In this document: positions 22,113 to 34,089 of the stretch, in pieces | Layout: every line of letters starts with the position of its first letter | Numbering within the stretch: the stretch's first letter is position 1 | From: Ardenticatenaceae bacterium | GTDB taxonomy: Bacteria > Chloroflexota > Anaerolineae > Ardenticatenales > Ardenticatenaceae | Reading direction: 5' to 3' | NCBI GenBank assembly: GCA_026989095.1 | Contig: JALSKA010000004.1 | Location: 1 to 34,726 of the forward strand | DNA: 34,726 bases | The notes under the pieces: model-generated | What the model saw: only the letters and a program-made list of their open reading frames with translations | Databases searched by the model: none | Told to the model about the DNA's origin: nothing | Made by a program: the position numbers and the translations under genes

Positions 22113-22661
22113 TCACGGGAGCCGCTGGAAGAAGATAGGGGGCAAGTAGCCGGACACCCACGGGGACACGAGTTGGGCAAGCACGGGAAGTACCGTTATA
22201 ATCATGGGCACCAAAAAAGAGCGGGCAATGCCCTCGCGAATGAAGAGGCGCACGCCATTGTAGTTGATCCAGGGCACGCTGGTCATGAAGTTAAGCGCCA
22301 AAACGAGCACCGCCGCCCAGAAGAAGCCGCTGACGAGCCCCAAAGCCATGCCGGCCAGCCGGTCGAGGGTGCCGCCCAAGCGCAGGGAGGCCTGCTCGAA
22401 GCCAAAGCGCACGCCCAAGTTAATGCCACTCCAAATGAAGAAGACGATCAACAGGAAAATGACCGTGTCGCGGACCAGCGTCTCCGAAGGCCCCAGCAGA
22501 TTGGCCGCGAACCGGGAGACGCGCGGCTGGTACGCGCTGGCCACCACGAAGCCCAAGTAGAGCCCCAACAGGCTCACGGCCTGGAGCAGGAAGCCGCGCG
22601 CAAAGCCAACGAGCATTGAGCCCAGCAAAACGAGCAGAAGCACGAGATCGAACCAGAGCAT
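22113..22661 (-). CDS. CvpA family membrane protein
   Basis: This 182-aa membrane protein (from ATG 22661) belongs to the CvpA/colicin V production family. The start WFDLVLLLVLLGSMLVGFARGFLLQAVSLLGLYLGFVVA is the standard CvpA opening. The central IFLLIVFFIWSGINLGVRF and the DRLAGMALGLVSGFFWAAVL segment complete it. Four membrane helices are likely. Family members have been tied to envelope stress and bile or colicin phenotypes, but the mechanism is unknown. The frame extends to 22688, but ATG 22661 fits the family. It also lies 7 nt past a strong -10 box, which implies a leaderless mRNA. Confidence 0.9.
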   Translation of the reverse strand: MLWFDLVLLLVLLGSMLVGFARGFLLQAVSLLGLYLGFVVASAYQPRVSRFAANLLGPSETLVRDTVIFLLIVFFIWSGINLGVRFGFEQASLRLGGTLDRLAGMALGLVSGFFWAAVLVLALNFMTSVPWINYNGVRLFIREGIARSFLVPMIITVLPVLAQLVSPWVSGYLPPIFFQRLP

Positions 22662-25342
22662 ATCAGGATTGTATCTGGAGGCGTTCACTTCGTCAAAGGT
22701 GGTCCGTCTGCCTCGCGGTCACCGCTGGGTACTTCGCCCTTGCCCTCCTGCTCACGTGGCCGCTGGCCCGCCTGTGGACTACGCACGCCCCTGGCGACGG
22801 GAGCGATGATCCGGCCATCCTCTGGAACCTCTGGTGGGTGCCCTTTGCCCTCTTTCAGGGCCTCAATCCCCTGGTCAGCGAGTACCTCTTCTGGCCCCTG
22901 GGTGTGAACCTGGTCTTCTACACCCTGACGACGCTGAACGCCCTGTTGACCATGCCCGTTCAGCTCGCCGTGGGCCTGATCCCGGCCAACGCCATCCTGG
23001 TCTGGTTCGAGCTCGTGGCGGGCGGGGTGGGCATGTTCTACCTGGCCCGCCGGCTGAACGCCGGGCTGCTCGGCGCGTTTCTGGCCGGGTGTGTCTTCAC
23101 CTTCGCCCACTCCCGCTTCGTCTACCTCTCCCTGGGCCAGTTCAACATCGCGGCCAGCCAATGGGTGCCCTGGTACGTGCTGTCCCTCTGGCGCTTGGAG
23201 GAGCGGGCCGGGTGGCGTGACGTGGGGTTGGCCGCCTTCTTTCTCCTCGCCAACGGGTGGACCGAGTTCACGTATGCTTCGTTCTTGATCCTCTTCACCC
23301 TGCTCTGGTGGGCCTGGCACCGTGCCGGCGACCTCAGAAGGAGGGAGCTCCGCAGGGCGCTTGCCAGCACAGGCCGGTACGCCGGCGTGGCCGCGCTCTT
23401 CGCCTTGGGCCTCTTCCCCGTCCTCATCTCCATGATCACCACCCTGCGCGCGGAGGGCGACTTCCTGGTGGAGGGGCTGGGCTTCGCCGATGTCTTCAGC
23501 AATGACCTGGTGGGCTTCTGGGTGCCAAGCCACCTTCACCCCCTGGTGGGCGACTGGGTGCGCCAGAACTTGGACTTCGCCTACCTCAACTTCGCCTATT
23601 TGGGATACGTGCCCCTGGCGCTGGCCGTGATCGCCCTGTTGAGCCGGCGCACGAGAGCTCGGGCGGCATTCTGGGGTGTGGCCCTGGTCACTTTCATGGC
23701 CCTGAGCCTGGGGCCCACCCTGCGCGTCAACGGCCAGCAGTGGGACCTTCCCCTCCCCTTCGACCTGCTGTTGCGCCTGCCCATCTTCAAGGCGAACCGA
23801 TACCCCAGTCGCTACAGCGTGCTCATCGCCGCTTGCCTGGCCGTGCTGAGCGCCTACGGCGCACAAGCCTTGGGCAAACGTTGGGGCCAAAGGCGCCGGC
23901 GGGCTCTCCTAGCCTTTGCTCTGCCCCTCTTTCTGGTGGAGACGGCCGCCGTTCCCCTGCCACTGAGCGCCTATCAGGTTCCCCCCGTCTACCGGACCCT
24001 GAAGGAGAAGAGCACCCTGGCCGTGCTGGAAGTGCCCATGGCCTGGCGCAACGGGTTCCGCGTCACCGGTCCTCTGGACAAGACGTTCATGTTCGCCCAG
24101 TTCTACCAGACTGTCCACGCCAAGCGCTTGATCAACGGCAACACCAGCCGCAACCCGGAGTTCCTCTTTCAATACTTCACGGAAGCCCCCCTGCTCAACA
24201 GCCTGCTCGCCCTGGAGACGGGGAAAAGCCTGCCCCCGGAGCGCGAACTCTTCGACGCCCAGTACGCGGCCGACGCGCTCCAACTGCTCGGCGTGCAAGA
24301 GGTGATCGTCCACCGGGTCAACTCGCCCCGCCCAGATGTGACTCCCGAGGCCACCATCTCCTACTTGGAGCGCGTGCTCCCCCTGACCCAGTGGTACGAC
24401 GATGGCACCATCGGGGCGTGGGAGGTAGTGCTGCCGCCGTTGCCACGCACTGTGCGCTTGGACGCAGTCCACCCGCTGGCGCGACTCCACTTCGGCGACG
24501 GCTGGGGGCCCCTGCCCCCCTTCGAGCGACGGCCCTCCCGCCCGCCCACCGTGTGGGCCCAGCGCCGAACGGCGCGCCTCTTCGTGGCCTTGGACGCCAG
24601 GCGAGCGCGCCTGCGCTTCCGCGCCTGCTCGGCCGGGGCCCAGCAGATGGCCGTGTCGGTCAACGGGGGCCGGCCGGTCCCTGTGGACCTGCGTCCCGGC
24701 TGGCAGGAGTACGAGATAGTCCTGGATGGGTTCCGCCCGGGGCCCAACGCCCTGCGCTTCTCGTTCGAGCGCCTTGTGCCCGTGGTCGGGGAAACGCCGG
24801 CTTCGGCCTGCATGGAGCCGGCCTCGCGCGGGCTGGTGAGCCTTGTCGTGGAGAGCGCTGGGCTGGACGTGGGCGATTTCGCCCACATCTACGTCAACGG
24901 CCGAGATGTGGCCCCCAACCGCATGGGGTATAACGTGGCCGTCGTCGAGCCGACAAGCGGTCGGGTGCTCCGCGTGGCCGCCTTCGATCCCGTGAACGTG
25001 CCGTCAGACGCCGGCGCGCTGGCCCGGTTCATCGAAGGTGCTCCCGGGGGCACGCTGGTGGCCGTGGCGGCCAACGACACCGTGGACTTGCCCCCCGAGT
25101 TCGGCGGGCCACGTCTCACCGCCGAGGCCGTGGATGCCCTGCGCCTCCTCGGCGGCACGGCCGACCTGCGCGGCACTTTCCGGTGGAGTCACGCCCTGTT
25201 GGGCATCAAGGGAACGGCTGCTGCGTCGGCCGACGAGGACGTGAGCGCCGTGCGTCCGGCCCGTGTCTGGCTCGGCGAGCTGGTGACGGCGCCGAACGTG
25301 GCCGCCGGATTTGCCTGGTTCGAGCTCTCGGCCGAGCCATGA
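22616..25342 (+). CDS. Large GT-C-like membrane protein with C-terminal FAM3/ILEI (GG)-type domain
   Basis: This is a 908-aa multispanning protein (about ten helices up to residue ~450) of the YfhO/GT-C-like type that transfers sugars outside the membrane. After TM1 comes HAPGDGSDDPAILWNLWWV, with Asp64-Asp65 in the usual place of GT-C acidic residues. Residues about 630-740 form a beta-rich segment like a carbohydrate-binding sandwich. Residues about 742-880 (nt 24839-25255) match the FAM3/ILEI pattern: YNVAVVEPTSGRVLRVAAFD, then RFIEGAPGGTLVAVAANDT, then WSHALLGIKG. The only standard in-frame start before TM1 is TTG 22616, which lacks a ribosome-binding site and overlaps cvpA antisense, so the true N-terminus is uncertain. 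Glycosyltransferase activity is inferred from topology. The ILEI-like domain is recognised by pattern and not by a search. Confidence 0.75.
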   Translation: MSPAKRAEARDRTRAYQDCIWRRSLRQRWSVCLAVTAGYFALALLLTWPLARLWTTHAPGDGSDDPAILWNLWWVPFALFQGLNPLVSEYLFWPLGVNLVFYTLTTLNALLTMPVQLAVGLIPANAILVWFELVAGGVGMFYLARRLNAGLLGAFLAGCVFTFAHSRFVYLSLGQFNIAASQWVPWYVLSLWRLEERAGWRDVGLAAFFLLANGWTEFTYASFLILFTLLWWAWHRAGDLRRRELRRALASTGRYAGVAALFALGLFPVLISMITTLRAEGDFLVEGLGFADVFSNDLVGFWVPSHLHPLVGDWVRQNLDFAYLNFAYLGYVPLALAVIALLSRRTRARAAFWGVALVTFMALSLGPTLRVNGQQWDLPLPFDLLLRLPIFKANRYPSRYSVLIAACLAVLSAYGAQALGKRWGQRRRRALLAFALPLFLVETAAVPLPLSAYQVPPVYRTLKEKSTLAVLEVPMAWRNGFRVTGPLDKTFMFAQFYQTVHAKRLINGNTSRNPEFLFQYFTEAPLLNSLLALETGKSLPPERELFDAQYAADALQLLGVQEVIVHRVNSPRPDVTPEATISYLERVLPLTQWYDDGTIGAWEVVLPPLPRTVRLDAVHPLARLHFGDGWGPLPPFERRPSRPPTVWAQRRTARLFVALDARRARLRFRACSAGAQQMAVSVNGGRPVPVDLRPGWQEYEIVLDGFRPGPNALRFSFERLVPVVGETPASACMEPASRGLVSLVVESAGLDVGDFAHIYVNGRDVAPNRMGYNVAVVEPTSGRVLRVAAFDPVNVPSDAGALARFIEGAPGGTLVAVAANDTVDLPPEFGGPRLTAEAVDALRLLGGTADLRGTFRWSHALLGIKGTAAASADEDVSAVRPARVWLGELVTAPNVAAGFAWFELSAEP
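22668..22696 (-). promoter_or_regulatory. Near-consensus promoter giving leaderless cvpA mRNA
   Basis: On the minus strand, TTGACG (complement of 22691-22696) is separated by 17 bp from TACAAT (complement of 22668-22673). The A of the cvpA ATG (22661) is the seventh base after the -10, which is the expected transcription start. No Shine-Dalgarno sequence can exist on such a transcript. Confidence 0.65.
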
Positions 25343-27655: not shown

Positions 27656-27717
27656 CGCCTGTCATGGGCAGGAGTGTGCCACGGCCTGCCCCGGTCCCTG
27701 CCCACAAGGGGGTTCAC

Positions 27718-28476
27718 ATGAACGTGACAGTGGTGATACCAACGTACAACGAAGCGGACAACTTGGCAGAGCTTGTCGAAGCACTCTTTGCCCTTCCCCT
27801 GCCAAAGCTCCACGTGATCATTGTGGACGACAACTCTCCCGACGGCACGGGGGATCTGGCCGAGGAGTTGGCCGGCCAACATCCTGGGCAGATGACGGTG
27901 CTTCACAGGCCGGGAAAGCTCGGACTCGGCTCGGCGTACAAGGCGGGCTTCCGCCACGCCTTGGCCCTCGGCGCCGACGCCGTGGTGCAAATGGACGCCG
28001 ACTTTTCCCACTCGCCCCACTACGTGCCCCAGATGGTCCGCCACTTGGACGCCTACGATGTGGTCGTCGGCTCGCGGTACGTGGCCGGCGGCCGGCTGGA
28101 CGAGCGGTGGTCGTGGTGGCGGCACTTGCTCTCCTGGTGGGCCAACCAAGTCTACGTGCGCATGATCCTCAACCTCAAAGTGCGCGATGCCACGGCCGGC
28201 TTCAAGGCATTTCGCCGGGAGGTGCTGGAGGCCATTGACTTCTCGCGCGTCGTCAGCAACGGGTATGTCTTCCAGGTGGAAGTGGCCTACTTGTGCGAAC
28301 GTCTGGGGTTCCGCGTGTTGGAGATCCCCATCTACTTCGAGGACCGTCGCATCGGCCGGAGCAAGATGAACGTGCCCGTCAAAGTGGAAGCGGCCGTGCG
28401 CGTGTGGCAAATCCGATGGCGCCACCGCCACGTGACGCCCCTGGCGATGCGCACGGCGGACCACAAGCCCGTGTAG
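27718..28476 (+). CDS. DPM1-type family 2 glycosyltransferase (polyprenyl-phosphate sugar synthase)
   Basis: This soluble GT2 enzyme (252 aa) would move mannose or another hexose from a nucleotide sugar to polyprenyl phosphate on the cytoplasmic face. Motifs in order are [14 protein letters not shown] (3-16), [10 protein letters not shown] (36-45), GSAYKAGF (71-78) and the metal-binding MDADFSHSP with Asp93-Ala-Asp95. After these come [31 protein letters not shown] and [12 protein letters not shown]. This pattern is that of dolichol-phosphate mannose synthase. There are no C-terminal helices, unlike CsbB/GtrB-type enzymes. ATG 27718 is chosen because AAGGGGG (27706-27712) precedes it; ATG 27664 remains possible. 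The YfhO-flippase fusion follows after 9 bp and would use the product. Confidence 0.92.
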
Positions 28477-28485
28477 AACGGAGCC

Positions 28486-31400
28486 ATGACCACGGCCGGC
28501 CGTGATCTCCACACGTCAACCGGCGCCGGCGGGCAGACGGAGGGGAGGAGAGGGCCCGTGGCCCTCCCGCGCTGGCGAGAGAGCCTTCTCCTCCTCGCCT
28601 GCTTTACCCTGTTGCCCCTGGCCCTCTTCTGGTCGGTCACCGTGGGTGGGCGCAGTCTAGTCCCCTTCGACATCCTCTACCAGTTCGAGCCGTGGCGCTC
28701 TTTCGCGGACCACGTGGGCGTGGGGCTCCCGGCCAACGAGCTGGTGGCCGATCTCCTGCTGGAGAACTACGCCTGGAAGGGGTTCATCGTCGAGGCGCTC
28801 TCCGAGCGTCAACTCCCCCTCTGGAACCCCTATGTGTTCGCCGGAATGCCCTTCTTGGCCGCCGGACAGCACAGCTTCCTCTACCCCTTCTCGGCCCTCT
28901 TCCTCATCATGCCCGTCTGGCAGGCCTACGGCTGGTTTACGGTCATCACGCTGATTCTGGCCGGCCTGAACATGTACGTCCTCCTGCGGGTGGTGGGCGC
29001 CGGACGAGGTGCCGCGCTGGTGGGAGGGCTCGTCTACCAGGGGAGCGGCTTCCTCACCATCAGCGTGGTCTTCCAGATGATCATCGCCGGGGCGGCCTGG
29101 TTGCCCTTGGTGTTGGCCATGATCCACAAGTTGGCCGAGAAGGCCGCGGCCGGCGAGCGTGACCTCACCGCTTACATCCCGTGGGCCTCGGTGGGGGGCG
29201 TGGCCCTGGGGCTTGTCTTCCTGGCCGGCCACGTGGAAATTGCCTACTACACCTTGCTGCTCGGCGCCGCCTGCGGCCTGTGGCAGGCCGTGCGCCTCTG
29301 GCTTGGCGGGCGGGAGCCGGCCCGCCTGATCGTGTGGGGCCTGCTCATGGGGCTGGTGGGCGGCCTGCTGGGCGCTGCCCAGATGGTGCCCCTCTACGAG
29401 CTGGTGCGCGCCAACTTCCGCGAGGGGAGTGCTACCCTACAACAGGTGCTGGGTTGGGCGTATCCGCCGCGCCAGATCATCACCTTCCTCGTGCCCGACT
29501 TCTGGGGCAACCCAGCCCGCCACGAGGTCTTCGACATCGTGCGCCGGACGTGGCGCCCCATTCTCACCCGCAACGTGATGGGCCAGACGCTCAACTACGT
29601 GGCCTGGACCCAAGGGCTTCCCTCCTGGAAGAACTACGTCGAAGCGGCCAGCTACGTGGGCGTGCTCCCCTTGATCTTGGCCGGCGTGGCCGCCTGGCAC
29701 CGTCGGCGGGAGCCGGCCGTGCGCTTCTTCGTTCTCCTGGCCGTGGTCAGCCTCCTCTTCACCTTCGGCACGCCCCTCTACGCCCTGCTCTACTACGGCC
29801 TGCCCGGCTGGAAACAACTCCACACGCCCTTCCGGTGGGTCTTCCCCTACACTCTGGCCGTGGCGGTGTTGGCCGGCTTGGGCTGGGACTGGATCGTTCG
29901 CCACCCGCGCTTGGCCGGCGTGCGCCGGCTGGGGATGGGGATGGCCGCCGGGGGCGGGGCGATGCTGGCGGGCCTGGTGGCCGTCTTCCTGGCACCGGGC
30001 CCTTGGCTGGCCCTGGCCGACAGGCTCATGGCCGTGTCGGAGCTCACGCGGGTGGCCTTCGCCGACGACCCGGCCCTGTTGGTGAGCTACCAGTGGCGCA
30101 ACTTCCTCGTGCTGGCGATCTTCTTGCTCTTGGCCGGCGGTCTCCTGTGGGGCGCACACCGCGCTCTGAGCGCCCGGCCCCGCCTGTGGGCGGGCGCAGC
30201 GCTGGCCGTGGTGGGGGTGGACCTCTACGTGGCCGCGGCCGGCTTCAACCCCGCCGTCTCGCCCGAGCTCATCCGCGTGACCCCGCCGGCCATCGCGTGG
30301 CTTCAGGAGCAGCCCGGCCTGTGGCGCTTCACCACCCTGGAAGAGCCGGGGCAACCGGTGCTCACGGCCAACGCCGGCATGTTCTACCGGCTTCACGACG
30401 TGCGGGGATACGATTCCATCATCCTGAAACACTACGTGCAGCTCATGGAGCAGGTGGAGGGACAGGGACAACTCCTCTACAACCGTGTCTCTCCCCTCTT
30501 CTGGGAGGGCTCCCTGGACAGCGCCCTGCTGGACATGCTGAACGTGCGCTTCGTGGTCACGACGCTGGAGGTCAACCGCCCCGGGTGGCGCCCGGTCTAC
30601 GCCGGAGAGGTGCGCATCTACGAGAACCAAGACGTGCTGCCGCGGGCCTACTGGCTGCCGGCCGAACGCGCGCGGTGGCGCGATCACGACACTGTGATCG
30701 CCGAGCTGAAGTCCCTCGATCCCAGACGTGAGGTCTGGCTGGACGCTGAGAGCGCACAGGTGCCGGAGGCATTCCCGCAGGCTTCCCCCTCGGAGGAGAA
30801 GGCCGCTTGGAGCCCTGCGGAGGTGGTAGCGTACACGCCCAACGAAGTGGTGGTGTACGTCGAAACAGACCGGCCAGCCGTGCTCGTCTTGGGGGACACG
30901 TGGTTTCCGGGGTGGCGGGCCTTCCTGCGGCCGGCCCCCGGCGGGGAGGAGCGCGAGGTGCCCGTCTGGCGGGCCAACGGGGCCCTGCGGGCTGTGCCGG
31001 TTCCGGCCGGCGCGTGGACCGTGCGCTGGAGGTACAGCCCCGACAGCGTGAAGGTGGGCTTCTTCGCCAGCTTCTTGGGCACCGTGCTGCTGGTGTTGGG
31101 CGCCGCCTACTGGCTCTGGGGGCGCATCTACCAGGAACAGCCCCACGAACACGCCGTGCGGCGAGTGGCCAAGAACAGCCTGGCGCCCATGCTCCTCCAA
31201 CTGCTCAACAAGGCCGTGGACACGGTCTTCGCGGCCTTCATGGCCCGCATTCTGGGGCCGGAAGGCGTGGGCGCCTACGCTTTCGCCGTGGCCATCATCT
31301 GGTATTTTATCATCTTCACCAACTTCGGCCTCGGGACCCTGCTCACCCGCGACGTGGCCCGGGACCCCCACATGGCCCTGCGATACGTGCGCCACACCAT

Positions 31401-32676
31401 CGCCTCCCGCCTGCTCCTCTTCCTCAGCGCGATGCCCCTGCTGCTGGCGGTCATCTGGCTCTGGGAGACCCGTTTCGGGCTGAGCCGGACCACGAGCTGG
31501 GCCATCGTGTTGCTGGCCCTGGGGCTCATCCCCAGCAACTTGGCCGACGTGCTGACGGCACTCTTCCGGGCCTACGAGAAATTCGAGGTGCCGGCCCTGA
31601 TCACCACGGTGACCACGCTGGTGAAGGTCAGTTTGGGCGCCGGCGTCCTCTTGGCCGGCTACGGCATTGTTGGGCTGGCGGCTACCTCGGCCGTGACGAA
31701 CACGATCACGCTGGTCGTGTTGGGCTGGCTGGCCGTGCGCCAGGGGTGGCCGGCCGGCCGCTGGTGGCGCGGGTGGTGGCAGGAGTGGCGCGCCGGGTGG
31801 AACTGGAATTTCAGCCGCACCCTGCTGAGCACGGCCTTTCCCCTGATGATCAATGACTTCCTGAGCACGGCTTTCTTTCGCATGGACGTGGCCATCCTCC
31901 AGCCCATGAAGGGCGACACGGTGGTGGGATGGTACAACGTGGCCTACAAGTTCATCGACGGCCTGGTCATCATTCCCAGCTCCTTCACCCTGGCCCTCTT
32001 TCCGGTCATCTCGCGCTACGCCGAGGGCGCCCGTGACGCCCTCTGGCGGGCCACCGTCCTCTCATTGCGCTGGCTCCTCTTCCTGGCGATTCCCATCTGT
32101 GTGCTGACGACCCGCTACGCCGACACCATTATCTGGGCCTTCGGGGGCTCGCGCTTCTTGCCCCACTCGGCCACGGCGTTGCGGCTGCTCATCTGGTTCC
32201 TGCCCTTCAGCTTCATCAACAGCCTGGTCCACTACGTGCTCATCGCCGTCAACCAGCAACGCTACCTGACCCGCGCCTTCCTCATTGGAGTGGGGTTCAA
32301 CTTGGTGGCGAACGTGCTCCTGATCCCGCGCTACTCCTACCAGGCCGCGGCGGTCAACACAGTGTTGAGTGAAATCGCGCTGCTGCTCCCCTTCTACTCG
32401 CTCCTGCGCCGGCACGTGGGCCCCATTCCGTGGTTCTCCATCTGGTGGCGGCCGCTGGTGGCCGGTGGGCTCATGGTCCTGCCCCTGTGGGCCGGTCGGC
32501 TCTCTCCCCTCGTGGCCCTGCCGCTGGCCGGGCTCACCTACATTGGTGCCCTGCTGGCCTTGCGCGCCTTTACCCCAGACGACTGGGGTGTGATGGAGCG
32601 CCTGCTCCCGGCCGGCGTGCGCCGGCGCGTGGCTCCCCTCATTGCCGTGCTGGTTACGCCCACGGGACGGGCGTGA
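28486..32676 (+). CDS. YfhO-like GT-C membrane transferase fused to Wzx/MATE-like flippase
   Basis: This is one 1396-aa reading frame with two full-length membrane modules. Residues about 1-885 resemble YfhO. Helix 1 is at about 33-50, Asp62 (PFDILYQF) sits in the first outer loop, and the family hallmark LPLWNPYVFAGMPF is at 110-123. Many helices, an extracytoplasmic beta-rich domain (about 590-850) and a closing helix (about 855-880) follow. YfhO proteins transfer sugars from polyprenyl phosphate outside the membrane. After a short charged linker (YQEQPHEHAVRR, about 882-893), residues 890-1396 form an oligosaccharide flippase of the MOP superfamily: VAKNSLAPMLLQLLNKAVDT, ARILGPEGVGAYAFA, FALGLIPSNLAD-like repeats, and FPLMINDFLSTAFFRMDVAIL. 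No stop or frameshift is visible at the join. The preceding GT2 gene is 9 bp away. The combined role is inferred. Confidence 0.88.
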   Translation: MTTAGRDLHTSTGAGGQTEGRRGPVALPRWRESLLLLACFTLLPLALFWSVTVGGRSLVPFDILYQFEPWRSFADHVGVGLPANELVADLLLENYAWKGFIVEALSERQLPLWNPYVFAGMPFLAAGQHSFLYPFSALFLIMPVWQAYGWFTVITLILAGLNMYVLLRVVGAGRGAALVGGLVYQGSGFLTISVVFQMIIAGAAWLPLVLAMIHKLAEKAAAGERDLTAYIPWASVGGVALGLVFLAGHVEIAYYTLLLGAACGLWQAVRLWLGGREPARLIVWGLLMGLVGGLLGAAQMVPLYELVRANFREGSATLQQVLGWAYPPRQIITFLVPDFWGNPARHEVFDIVRRTWRPILTRNVMGQTLNYVAWTQGLPSWKNYVEAASYVGVLPLILAGVAAWHRRREPAVRFFVLLAVVSLLFTFGTPLYALLYYGLPGWKQLHTPFRWVFPYTLAVAVLAGLGWDWIVRHPRLAGVRRLGMGMAAGGGAMLAGLVAVFLAPGPWLALADRLMAVSELTRVAFADDPALLVSYQWRNFLVLAIFLLLAGGLLWGAHRALSARPRLWAGAALAVVGVDLYVAAAGFNPAVSPELIRVTPPAIAWLQEQPGLWRFTTLEEPGQPVLTANAGMFYRLHDVRGYDSIILKHYVQLMEQVEGQGQLLYNRVSPLFWEGSLDSALLDMLNVRFVVTTLEVNRPGWRPVYAGEVRIYENQDVLPRAYWLPAERARWRDHDTVIAELKSLDPRREVWLDAESAQVPEAFPQASPSEEKAAWSPAEVVAYTPNEVVVYVETDRPAVLVLGDTWFPGWRAFLRPAPGGEEREVPVWRANGALRAVPVPAGAWTVRWRYSPDSVKVGFFASFLGTVLLVLGAAYWLWGRIYQEQPHEHAVRRVAKNSLAPMLLQLLNKAVDTVFAAFMARILGPEGVGAYAFAVAIIWYFIIFTNFGLGTLLTRDVARDPHMALRYVRHTIASRLLLFLSAMPLLLAVIWLWETRFGLSRTTSWAIVLLALGLIPSNLADVLTALFRAYEKFEVPALITTVTTLVKVSLGAGVLLAGYGIVGLAATSAVTNTITLVVLGWLAVRQGWPAGRWWRGWWQEWRAGWNWNFSRTLLSTAFPLMINDFLSTAFFRMDVAILQPMKGDTVVGWYNVAYKFIDGLVIIPSSFTLALFPVISRYAEGARDALWRATVLSLRWLLFLAIPICVLTTRYADTIIWAFGGSRFLPHSATALRLLIWFLPFSFINSLVHYVLIAVNQQRYLTRAFLIGVGFNLVANVLLIPRYSYQAAAVNTVLSEIALLLPFYSLLRRHVGPIPWFSIWWRPLVAGGLMVLPLWAGRLSPLVALPLAGLTYIGALLALRAFTPDDWGVMERLLPAGVRRRVAPLIAVLVTPTGRA

Positions 32677-32706: not shown

Positions 32707-32736
32707 TTGTCCCCGTGCCGTTCCCTGGAGTACAAT
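32707..32736 (+). promoter_or_regulatory. Predicted promoter for the ECF sigma/anti-sigma genes
   Basis: TTGTCC (32707-32712) is separated by 18 bp from TACAAT (32731-32736). The leader to ATG 32785 is about 42 nt. This looks like a housekeeping-type promoter rather than an ECF autoregulatory one. Confidence 0.5.
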
Positions 32737-32784
32737 GGAGCCGAGCGCGGCCCACACGGTCCACTTTCACATTTTTTGAACCAC

Positions 32785-33339
32785 ATGGCGAACACGTGCG
32801 ACTATAGAAGTGAAGAGGCCCTTCTTCGCCGTGTGGCCGAGGGGGACCAAGACGCCTTTGCCGAGTTGTACGCCGTTCTCGGCCCCGTGGTCTACACCTA
32901 CTTGGTCCGCCTCGTGGGCGACCAAGGGGCGGCAGAGGACCTGCTTCAGGAGGTCTTCATGGCCGTCTGGGAGGGTGCCGGCCACTTCCGGGGCGACTCC
33001 CGTGCGAAGACGTGGGTGCTGCGCATTGCCCACTACCAGGCCGTCTCCTGGCTCCGCCGGCAGCGGCCTGTGGCCGCGTTGAGCGAGGCGCTCCCGGCCG
33101 AGGAGGACATCGAGGAGGCTGCGCTGGCCGCTTGGAGTGCATCCCGCCTGGCCGAGGCCTTGAAGCGCCTTCCGCCCCGCCAGCGCGCGGTGATCGAGCT
33201 CGTCTTTGGCCAGGAGCTCTCCTACGCCGAGGTGGCTGCCGTGCTAGGGTGTCCTGTGGGCACGGTCAAGAGCCGCGTCAGCTACGCCCTGCGCCTCCTG
33301 CGCCACCTGCTGCGCGATGTCCGGGAGAAACAGGTGTAA
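32785..33339 (+). CDS. ECF-type RNA polymerase sigma factor
   Basis: This is an extracytoplasmic-function sigma factor (184 aa from ATG 32785). Region 2 (about 25-92) includes AFAELYAVLGPVVYTYLVRLVGD, AEDLLQEVFMAVWEGAGHFRG and KTWVLRIAHYQAVSWLRR. Region 4 (about 125-178) is LPPRQRAVIELVFGQELSYAEVAAVLGCPVGTVKSRVSYALRLLRHLL. Both are intact, and region 3 is absent as in all ECF sigmas. The start codon lacks a clear ribosome-binding site; an upstream TTG (32707) coincides with the -35 box and is rejected. The next gene, 12 bp downstream, has an anti-sigma architecture, so the sigma is presumably held at the membrane until a signal arrives. Confidence 0.94.
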   Translation: MANTCDYRSEEALLRRVAEGDQDAFAELYAVLGPVVYTYLVRLVGDQGAAEDLLQEVFMAVWEGAGHFRGDSRAKTWVLRIAHYQAVSWLRRQRPVAALSEALPAEEDIEEAALAAWSASRLAEALKRLPPRQRAVIELVFGQELSYAEVAAVLGCPVGTVKSRVSYALRLLRHLLRDVREKQV

Positions 33340-33351
33340 CCGGAGACCGCC

Positions 33352-34089
33352 ATGGCCCCACTTCACGTGACGGCGGACAACGGGCGCAACGGAAAGGGGC
33401 CCGACGACGTGCGGGCCCTGCTGCCCTGGTACGTGAACGGCACGCTCGGCGGAGACGAGCGGAAGGCCGTGGAGGCGTGGCTCGCCCGCCACCCCGGCGC
33501 ACAGGCCGAGGTGGAAGCCCTGCGCCACCTCCACCGCGCCGTCCGAGCCCAGCCCCTTCAGCGCCCGCCGGACCGCGTGTGGGCACAGCTCCGGGCGCGC
33601 CTCCAAGCCGCGACATCCCCGTGGCCCCGGTGGCTCACGTGGGCGTGGACCGGGCTGGTCACCTTCATCCTCGCCTTTTTCCTGTGGGCCCTCTTCCAGC
33701 CCGGCATTGTGCTGCGCTGGCAGGCCCACACGTCACGCCCCGCCCAAGCCCACGTGTGGCGCGTGGCCGAAGACGGCCGCCTCATTCCCCTGGCCGCCCT
33801 CCCCCTCCCGCCCGGCCAACAGAGTGCAACCTTTGTGGACCCTTTCGTGCGCCCCGGCACGACGTACGTCTACCGCGTCGAGCTCGTGGACCGGGCCGGC
33901 CGAGTCGTCTGGTGGTGGACGGTGGTCCAGCGGGCGGACACACAAATTGTCGGCTTCTATGTGGCGATTGGATTCGTCAGCCTTGCTTTCGGATGGATGA
34001 CAGTCACGGCCTACGTTCATGTGTGGAACCTCTCGAGGCGGAGGTCACGTCCGGTTCAACGTCATGCCCCATGGGTACATAACCTGTAG
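33352..34089 (+). CDS. Two-TM anti-sigma factor-like protein lacking zinc ligands
   Basis: This 245-aa membrane protein is the likely partner of the sigma factor 12 bp upstream. Its N-terminal LLPWYVNGTLGGDERKAVEAWLARHPG (residues 23-49) matches the zinc-finger anti-sigma domain. The usual His-x3-Cys-x2-Cys ligands are Trp43, His47 and Ala50 here, so zinc is not expected. TM1 lies at about 94-115. Residues about 118-197 form a beta-rich segment outside the membrane (ending VYRVELVDRAGRVVWWWTVV), and TM2 lies at about 198-221. A basic cytoplasmic tail follows. Two TMs with an outer sensor loop are less common than the single-pass layout. The call rests on pattern and position. Confidence 0.8.
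   Translation: MAPLHVTADNGRNGKGPDDVRALLPWYVNGTLGGDERKAVEAWLARHPGAQAEVEALRHLHRAVRAQPLQRPPDRVWAQLRARLQAATSPWPRWLTWAWTGLVTFILAFFLWALFQPGIVLRWQAHTSRPAQAHVWRVAEDGRLIPLAALPLPPGQQSATFVDPFVRPGTTYVYRVELVDRAGRVVWWWTVVQRADTQIVGFYVAIGFVSLAFGWMTVTAYVHVWNLSRRRSRPVQRHAPWVHNL

Follow-up and report, generated by a model that had tools for sequence, protein, structure and literature searches.

Can a flippase and the glycosyltransferase that uses its lipid-linked cargo be parts of one polypeptide, and if so, what would their union do? This question is raised by a gene (28486-32676, plus strand) of an Ardenticatenaceae bacterium, located in a stretch of 34,726 nt (assembly GCA_026989095.1, contig JALSKA010000004.1) which is called the window here and from whose position 1 all coordinates are counted. 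The gene encodes a YfhO-type GT-C glycosyltransferase module joined to a complete Wzx/MATE flippase of the MOP type. We find that the fusion is genuine and widely conserved. We also hold, with moderate confidence, that the gene belongs to an extracytoplasmic glycosylation system of three components (a family 2 glycosyltransferase (GT2), a flippase and a GT-C enzyme), of which it supplies components 2 and 3 in a single chain.

Architecture of the fused chain

Translation of the gene gave 1396 codons with no internal stop, bearing out the single uninterrupted frame which an earlier sequence-only reading of the window had claimed. The chain consists of the YfhO-type module (residues ~30-880), a linker of ~25 residues and the flippase (~890-1380). 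A GTG codon at 28558 (residue 25) has a stronger purine-rich Shine-Dalgarno sequence than the ATG that opens the frame, and conservation across relatives sets in only near residue 26. Because of its better ribosome-binding site and this onset of conservation, the GTG may be the true start of the fused protein, which would then be 1372 aa in length.

A complete YfhO-like module reaching to about residue 885 had been described as well. Its hallmark, LPLWNPYVFAGMPF, is located at residues 110-123 and the conserved motifs are in place, but the YfhO family of Pfam (PF09586), which scores 36.1 bits (cut-off 28.5) when the first 885 residues are scanned alone, matches residues 130-219 only, a small part of a much longer model. 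Conservation was read from 52 aligned fused proteins, two of them from one contig. The near-invariant residues of the GT-C half are D62, D89, N94, W97, K98, PLWNP, G248-H249 and E251, and D62, which is kept in at least 95% of the fused proteins, may be catalytic. Helix counts are approximate and were taken from the averaged hydropathy of aligned proteins; 14 peaks are seen N-terminal to the junction, and a first outer loop of ~82 residues carries all of the conserved positions from D62 to PLWNP. Among the stand-alone YfhO relatives, PLWNP is present in most and D62/D89 in several. A large outer domain (residues 586-856), followed by a hydrophobic peak at 866, is alignable with the C-termini of stand-alone YfhO proteins and is a candidate for the acceptor-binding domain. 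Modelling of the chain as two overlapping pieces in AlphaFold2, with an alignment of two sequences, resulted in mean predicted local distance difference test (pLDDT) values of 34 and 36, the only better region being the beta part at residues ~775-850 (pLDDT 55-85).

Family matches of the C-terminal half agree with the earlier claim of a full-length flippase starting at about residue 890. Polysacc_synt (PF01943) scores 104.6 bits against a cut-off of 28.2 and covers profile positions 2-273 of 274, while Polysacc_synt_3, MatE and MurJ of Pfam also score above their cut-offs. The nearest NCBIfam models are Wzx_EPS and SpoVB, with scores far under the equivalog cut-offs. Hydropathy shows 12 peaks C-terminal to the junction, which is within the 12-14 helices typical of MOP flippases, and N897, D912, R921, E1031, N1072, N1123, R1177, N1276 and E1296 are near-invariant. 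A role of this half as the lipid II flippase was rejected because the genome encodes two better MurJ proteins (302.5 and 290.7 bits with PF03023, as compared to 28.8 for the fused protein). The stretch between the two halves (residues 876-901) is rich in lysine and arginine, which fits a cytoplasmic location of the join.

Conservation and history of the junction

The distribution survey covered Chloroflexota genomes, together with a contig scan and plasmids. In a class-wide sample of 297 genomes, each at least 90% complete, 254 contain a strong relative of the fused protein (match at E<=1e-70). Matches were obtained in 59 of 60 relatives, many of them with one unbroken frame of ~1320-1490 codons over both halves, and fused forms are not confined to the class, being present also in several families placed elsewhere. 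The contig scan found the fused protein in congeners only, and plasmids contain flippases or YfhO as separate proteins only. No split gene pair was seen in any close relative, and the stop near 31130-31160, named in the sequence-only reading as a sign that two genes had been joined artificially, is absent from the relatives. An intact fused frame was confirmed by script in 63 genomes, and independent fused assemblies are found in dozens of genera, single-contig genomes such as G016 included. Because independent assemblies thus carry fused orthologues, we take the fusion as genuine and reject an assembly or sequencing artefact, the chance of which is negligible.

Absences and interruptions of the fused frame were also recorded. 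Within the class, families f29 and f44 (G033, G152 and others; 97-99% complete) lacked any match with the fused protein at E<=1e-60, and the genomes tested from them still encode the GT2. One 77%-complete assembly (G036, locus L026) has an in-frame TGA near residue 388 of the fused frame, either a sequencing error or a pseudogene and in any case an exception of one assembly; in another single assembly (G001) the fused gene is broken by contig ends. The ratio of nonsynonymous to synonymous substitution (dN/dS, Nei-Gojobori method) in four close pairs is 0.09-0.22 for the GT-C half and its outer domain, 0.04-0.13 for the flippase half and 0.009-0.18 for the junction; a fifth, far pair gave 0.26-0.46, near saturation. 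Both halves and the junction are under purifying selection. Between the window and a congener the junction (last transmembrane segment, linker and first flippase helices) is identical in 100 of 100 alignment columns, as compared to ~85% for the whole proteins.

Other Chloroflexota families contain a stand-alone flippase of ~530 aa which is 34-47% identical to the C-terminal half. In a tree, fused and stand-alone flippases group in a single clade (SH-aLRT 99) that excludes seven further Wzx-like proteins from the phylum. The fused sequences mostly fall together, and in a small group the fused and stand-alone forms are intermingled, even within family f48. An extra N-terminal hydrophobic helix is present in 14 of the 20 stand-alone flippases and absent from all seven of the further Wzx proteins. 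When a profile of the junction (residues 858-894) was compared with 602 frames, the four best hits were the N-termini of stand-alone flippases (E 4e-7 to 1e-4). The flippases of loci L066, L067, L069 and L078 have an N-terminal membrane helix and an RRFYRDD-type linker resembling the fusion junction, one such match being LLIAAWLWRRFYRDDHTDPARTVAKNS against YWLWGRFYREDIEESDARRVAKNS. The profile matches and the extra helix together indicate that fused and stand-alone forms have an old junction segment in common, and the junction-like N-terminus of four stand-alone flippases is, judging from this resemblance, a scar of fusion or fission.

An arrangement of the two halves as adjacent genes in other families of the phylum was rejected, as no YfhO gene neighbours the stand-alone flippase in 20 loci; at locus L070 a distant YfhO is encoded on the opposite strand, ~6 kb away. 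Since a flippase of the same clade stands alone with no adjoining YfhO gene, it can work alone, which favours a fusion that serves for co-localisation, assembly or equal dosage only, with no direct hand-over and with the halves possibly acting on different lipids. However, the fused form is retained in most of the class and its junction is strongly constrained, and we consider such a limited role unlikely. The stand-alone relatives also show that a flippase starting at the junction helix is viable, as would be needed if translation from an internal start, or cleavage close to the linker, produced two mature proteins from one gene and the fusion were merely genetic. Two separate products do not need a frame that is fused in 63 genomes, and this explanation seems highly improbable.

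The upstream GT2 and the proposed route

The gene directly upstream of the fused gene encodes a GT2 of the dolichyl/polyprenyl-phosphate sugar synthase type (Glycos_transf_2 of Pfam, 122 bits), and its stop is located 9 nt upstream of the fused-gene ATG. The best solved relative of its product is the dolichol-phosphate-mannose synthase of P. furiosus (5MLZ, E 1.5e-32), followed by ArnC. Neighbours were counted in the 55 genomes, from 37 families, with sufficient upstream DNA: the GT2 is the immediate same-strand upstream neighbour of the fused gene in 27 genomes and 19 families, and of the other genomes tested, most encode a relative of it elsewhere. We presume that this GT2 is component 1, the missing first part of the three-component system. 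Like the stand-alone flippases of the phylum, it had been overlooked in the sequence-only reading. In genome G008 (L172 2679-6213) the GT2 gene overlaps the end of a stand-alone YfhO gene, which resembles the csbB-yfhO pair; no fused gene was found in G008, and no flippase was found within the 9 kb examined around GT2-YfhO.

Our assignment of the fused gene to components 2 and 3 draws on features read from sequence, namely the architecture, the wide conservation, the purifying selection, the GT2 neighbour and the near-invariant candidate residues. In the proposed route, for which we infer the topology, the substrate, the direction of flipping and the hand-over, the upstream GT2 would load a sugar onto polyprenyl phosphate at the cytoplasmic face and the C-terminal MOP/Wzx-type domain would flip the resulting lipid-linked sugar outward. 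From there, the YfhO-type GT-C of the N-terminal half would move the sugar to a surface acceptor by means of the acids D62 and D89 of its first outer loop, with the acceptor bound by the outer domain. The fusion would hold flippase and transferase next to each other in equal number (1:1), and might allow direct hand-over. The sequence-only reading took the fusion to imply substrate channelling from flippase to transferase. This goes too far, as co-localisation or fixed stoichiometry would equally favour a fusion; channelling is plausible. A stronger version, in which the flippase passes its cargo straight to the donor site of the GT-C joined to it, the donor bypasses the outer-leaflet pool and the protein is a self-contained machine making a class-typical surface glycan, is tentative and rather doubtful.

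Several points weigh against the three-component assignment. The flippase and transferase activities are predictions from sequence. The partial PF09586 match falls to 22.7 bits for the whole chain and to 21.1 bits in the whole-genome scan, both under the cut-off of 28.5, and the YfhO label therefore also leans on the motifs and on the alignment with stand-alone YfhO. Structure models of both overlapping pieces were unusable, the alignment being shallow, and no solved structure matched either half in profile searches. The GT2 does not adjoin the fused gene in about half of the genomes. Moreover, one GtrA-type flippase is encoded on another contig of the genome, and the fused flippase therefore need not serve the upstream GT2; at the locus itself no GtrA-type flippase is present and the flippase domain is of MOP type. 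Finally, Wzx-type proteins classically carry oligosaccharide units (reviewed in PMC11127046, PMC7389260), borne on undecaprenyl diphosphate.

Such oligosaccharide units, being the classical Wzx cargo, could also be what the fused protein flips. The YfhO domain would then transfer, cap or decorate that oligosaccharide on the outside, with the GT2 as one among several enzymes that build the unit. The best flippase matches, which are Polysacc_synt/Wzx-type, are in favour of this route. However, the locus showed no wzy, no gene for an initiating phosphoglycosyltransferase and no glycan cluster, and the sole recurrent neighbour is a GT2 of the monosaccharide-lipid synthase type, which makes the oligosaccharide route somewhat unlikely.

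Apart from the GT2, most of the neighbours recognised in the window are unrelated housekeeping genes (for example GH65, thiolase, NAD synthase, RuvB, Exo VII and TrkH). Downstream of the fused gene is an extracytoplasmic function (ECF) sigma factor gene with its anti-sigma partner (Table 1). It is possible that this pair is co-regulated with the fused gene; such a pair was not found beside the fused gene in other families. The gene at 22616-25342 encodes a protein of 908 aa whose C-terminal domain is of the ILEI (interleukin-like EMT (epithelial-mesenchymal transition) inducer) type. This protein weakly matches the fused-YfhO profile (22 bits) and may be another GT-C-like membrane protein, one that ends in a carbohydrate-binding part.

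Table 1. Coordinates of the fused gene, its parts and its neighbours in the window
Feature	Position	Strand	Details
GT2, dolichyl/polyprenyl-phosphate sugar synthase type	27664..28476	+	270 aa, no clear membrane anchor
Fused gene	28486..32676	+	1396 aa; alternative start GTG 28558
YfhO-type GT-C module	28573..31110	+	residues ~30-875; ~14 hydrophobic segments, last at 858-875
Codon of D62, candidate catalytic Asp	28669..28671	+	first extracytoplasmic loop (54-135)
Putative active-site loop: D89, N94, W97, K98, PLWNP 111-115	28750..28830	+	near-invariant residues
Extracytoplasmic domain with C-terminal beta part	30241..31053	+	residues 586-856, 271-residue loop flanked by hydrophobic peaks
Fusion junction: last YfhO transmembrane segment and K/R-rich cytoplasmic linker RIYQEQPHEHAVRRVAKN	31057..31188	+	residues 858-901
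Wzx/MATE (MOP) flippase module	31147..32673	+	residues 888-1396; ~12 hydrophobic segments
ECF sigma factor	32707..33339	+	begins 30 bases past the fused gene
Zinc-finger (zf-HC2-like) anti-sigma factor	33352..34089	+	downstream of the ECF sigma factor gene

Relation to known systems

Multi-component transmembrane glycosylation uses a lipid-phosphate-sugar synthase, a flippase and a GT-C enzyme, and the flippase is usually GtrA-type and sometimes Wzx-type, as in GacK (PMC8035078). A MATE-family flippase has been assigned by context to a polyprenyl-phosphate-pentose system with a GT-C, its activity not being shown directly; the authors note a lack of direct evidence that such proteins act as flippases (PMC11127046). 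As the sequence-only reading had stated, flippase and GT-C are separate proteins in the described systems (PMC8035078, PMC11127046, PMC7389260). The two-gene unit of GT2 and fused gene is consistent with this scheme; the fused protein would unite components 2 and 3 in one chain, in comparison to the three separate polypeptides of the standard three-component systems.

In GacI-GacJ-GacK-GacL of Streptococcus pyogenes, a GT-A enzyme makes the lipid-phosphate-sugar, the Wzx-type GacK exports it and the GT-C GacL uses it; these are, however, four separate proteins and GacL is of the PMT_2 type, not YfhO (PMC8035078). The pentofuranose system of Citrobacter youngae likewise has a polyprenyl-phosphate-sugar synthase, a MATE-family flippase and a GT-C transferase, but as separate proteins, with other synthase chemistry and a GT-C of family GT136 (PMC11127046). 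CsbB-GtcA-YfhO of Bacillus, Listeria and Staphylococcus shares the GT2 and the YfhO-family GT-C, whereas its flippase GtcA is a small GtrA-family protein and all of its proteins are separate (PMC7389260, PMC8035078). A lipid-modifying enzyme and a lipid flippase do occur in one chain in MprF, the lysyl-phosphatidylglycerol synthase/flippase (PMC5898192). Its folds are unrelated, and the MprF synthase makes the flipped lipid inside while the fused GT-C would use the lipid outside. In the literature searched, in which few subscription papers were covered, we found no published description of a YfhO-flippase fusion, in line with the earlier statement that no characterised example was known. The parts and the pathway are already known; the covalent union of a flippase with an outward-facing GT-C, fixed in most of the class, appears to be undescribed.

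The flipping of polyprenyl-phosphate-sugars in three-component systems has so far been assigned mostly by genetics and context. A natural fusion links a MOP-type flippase to a GT-C of the same pathway and strengthens the case for MOP proteins in such systems. Being one polypeptide, it makes the coupling of flipping and transfer testable through changes of the linker and the active site and through a single cryo-EM structure. The fusion is also a pointer to a conserved envelope glycan, so far unstudied, in Anaerolineae-type Chloroflexota.

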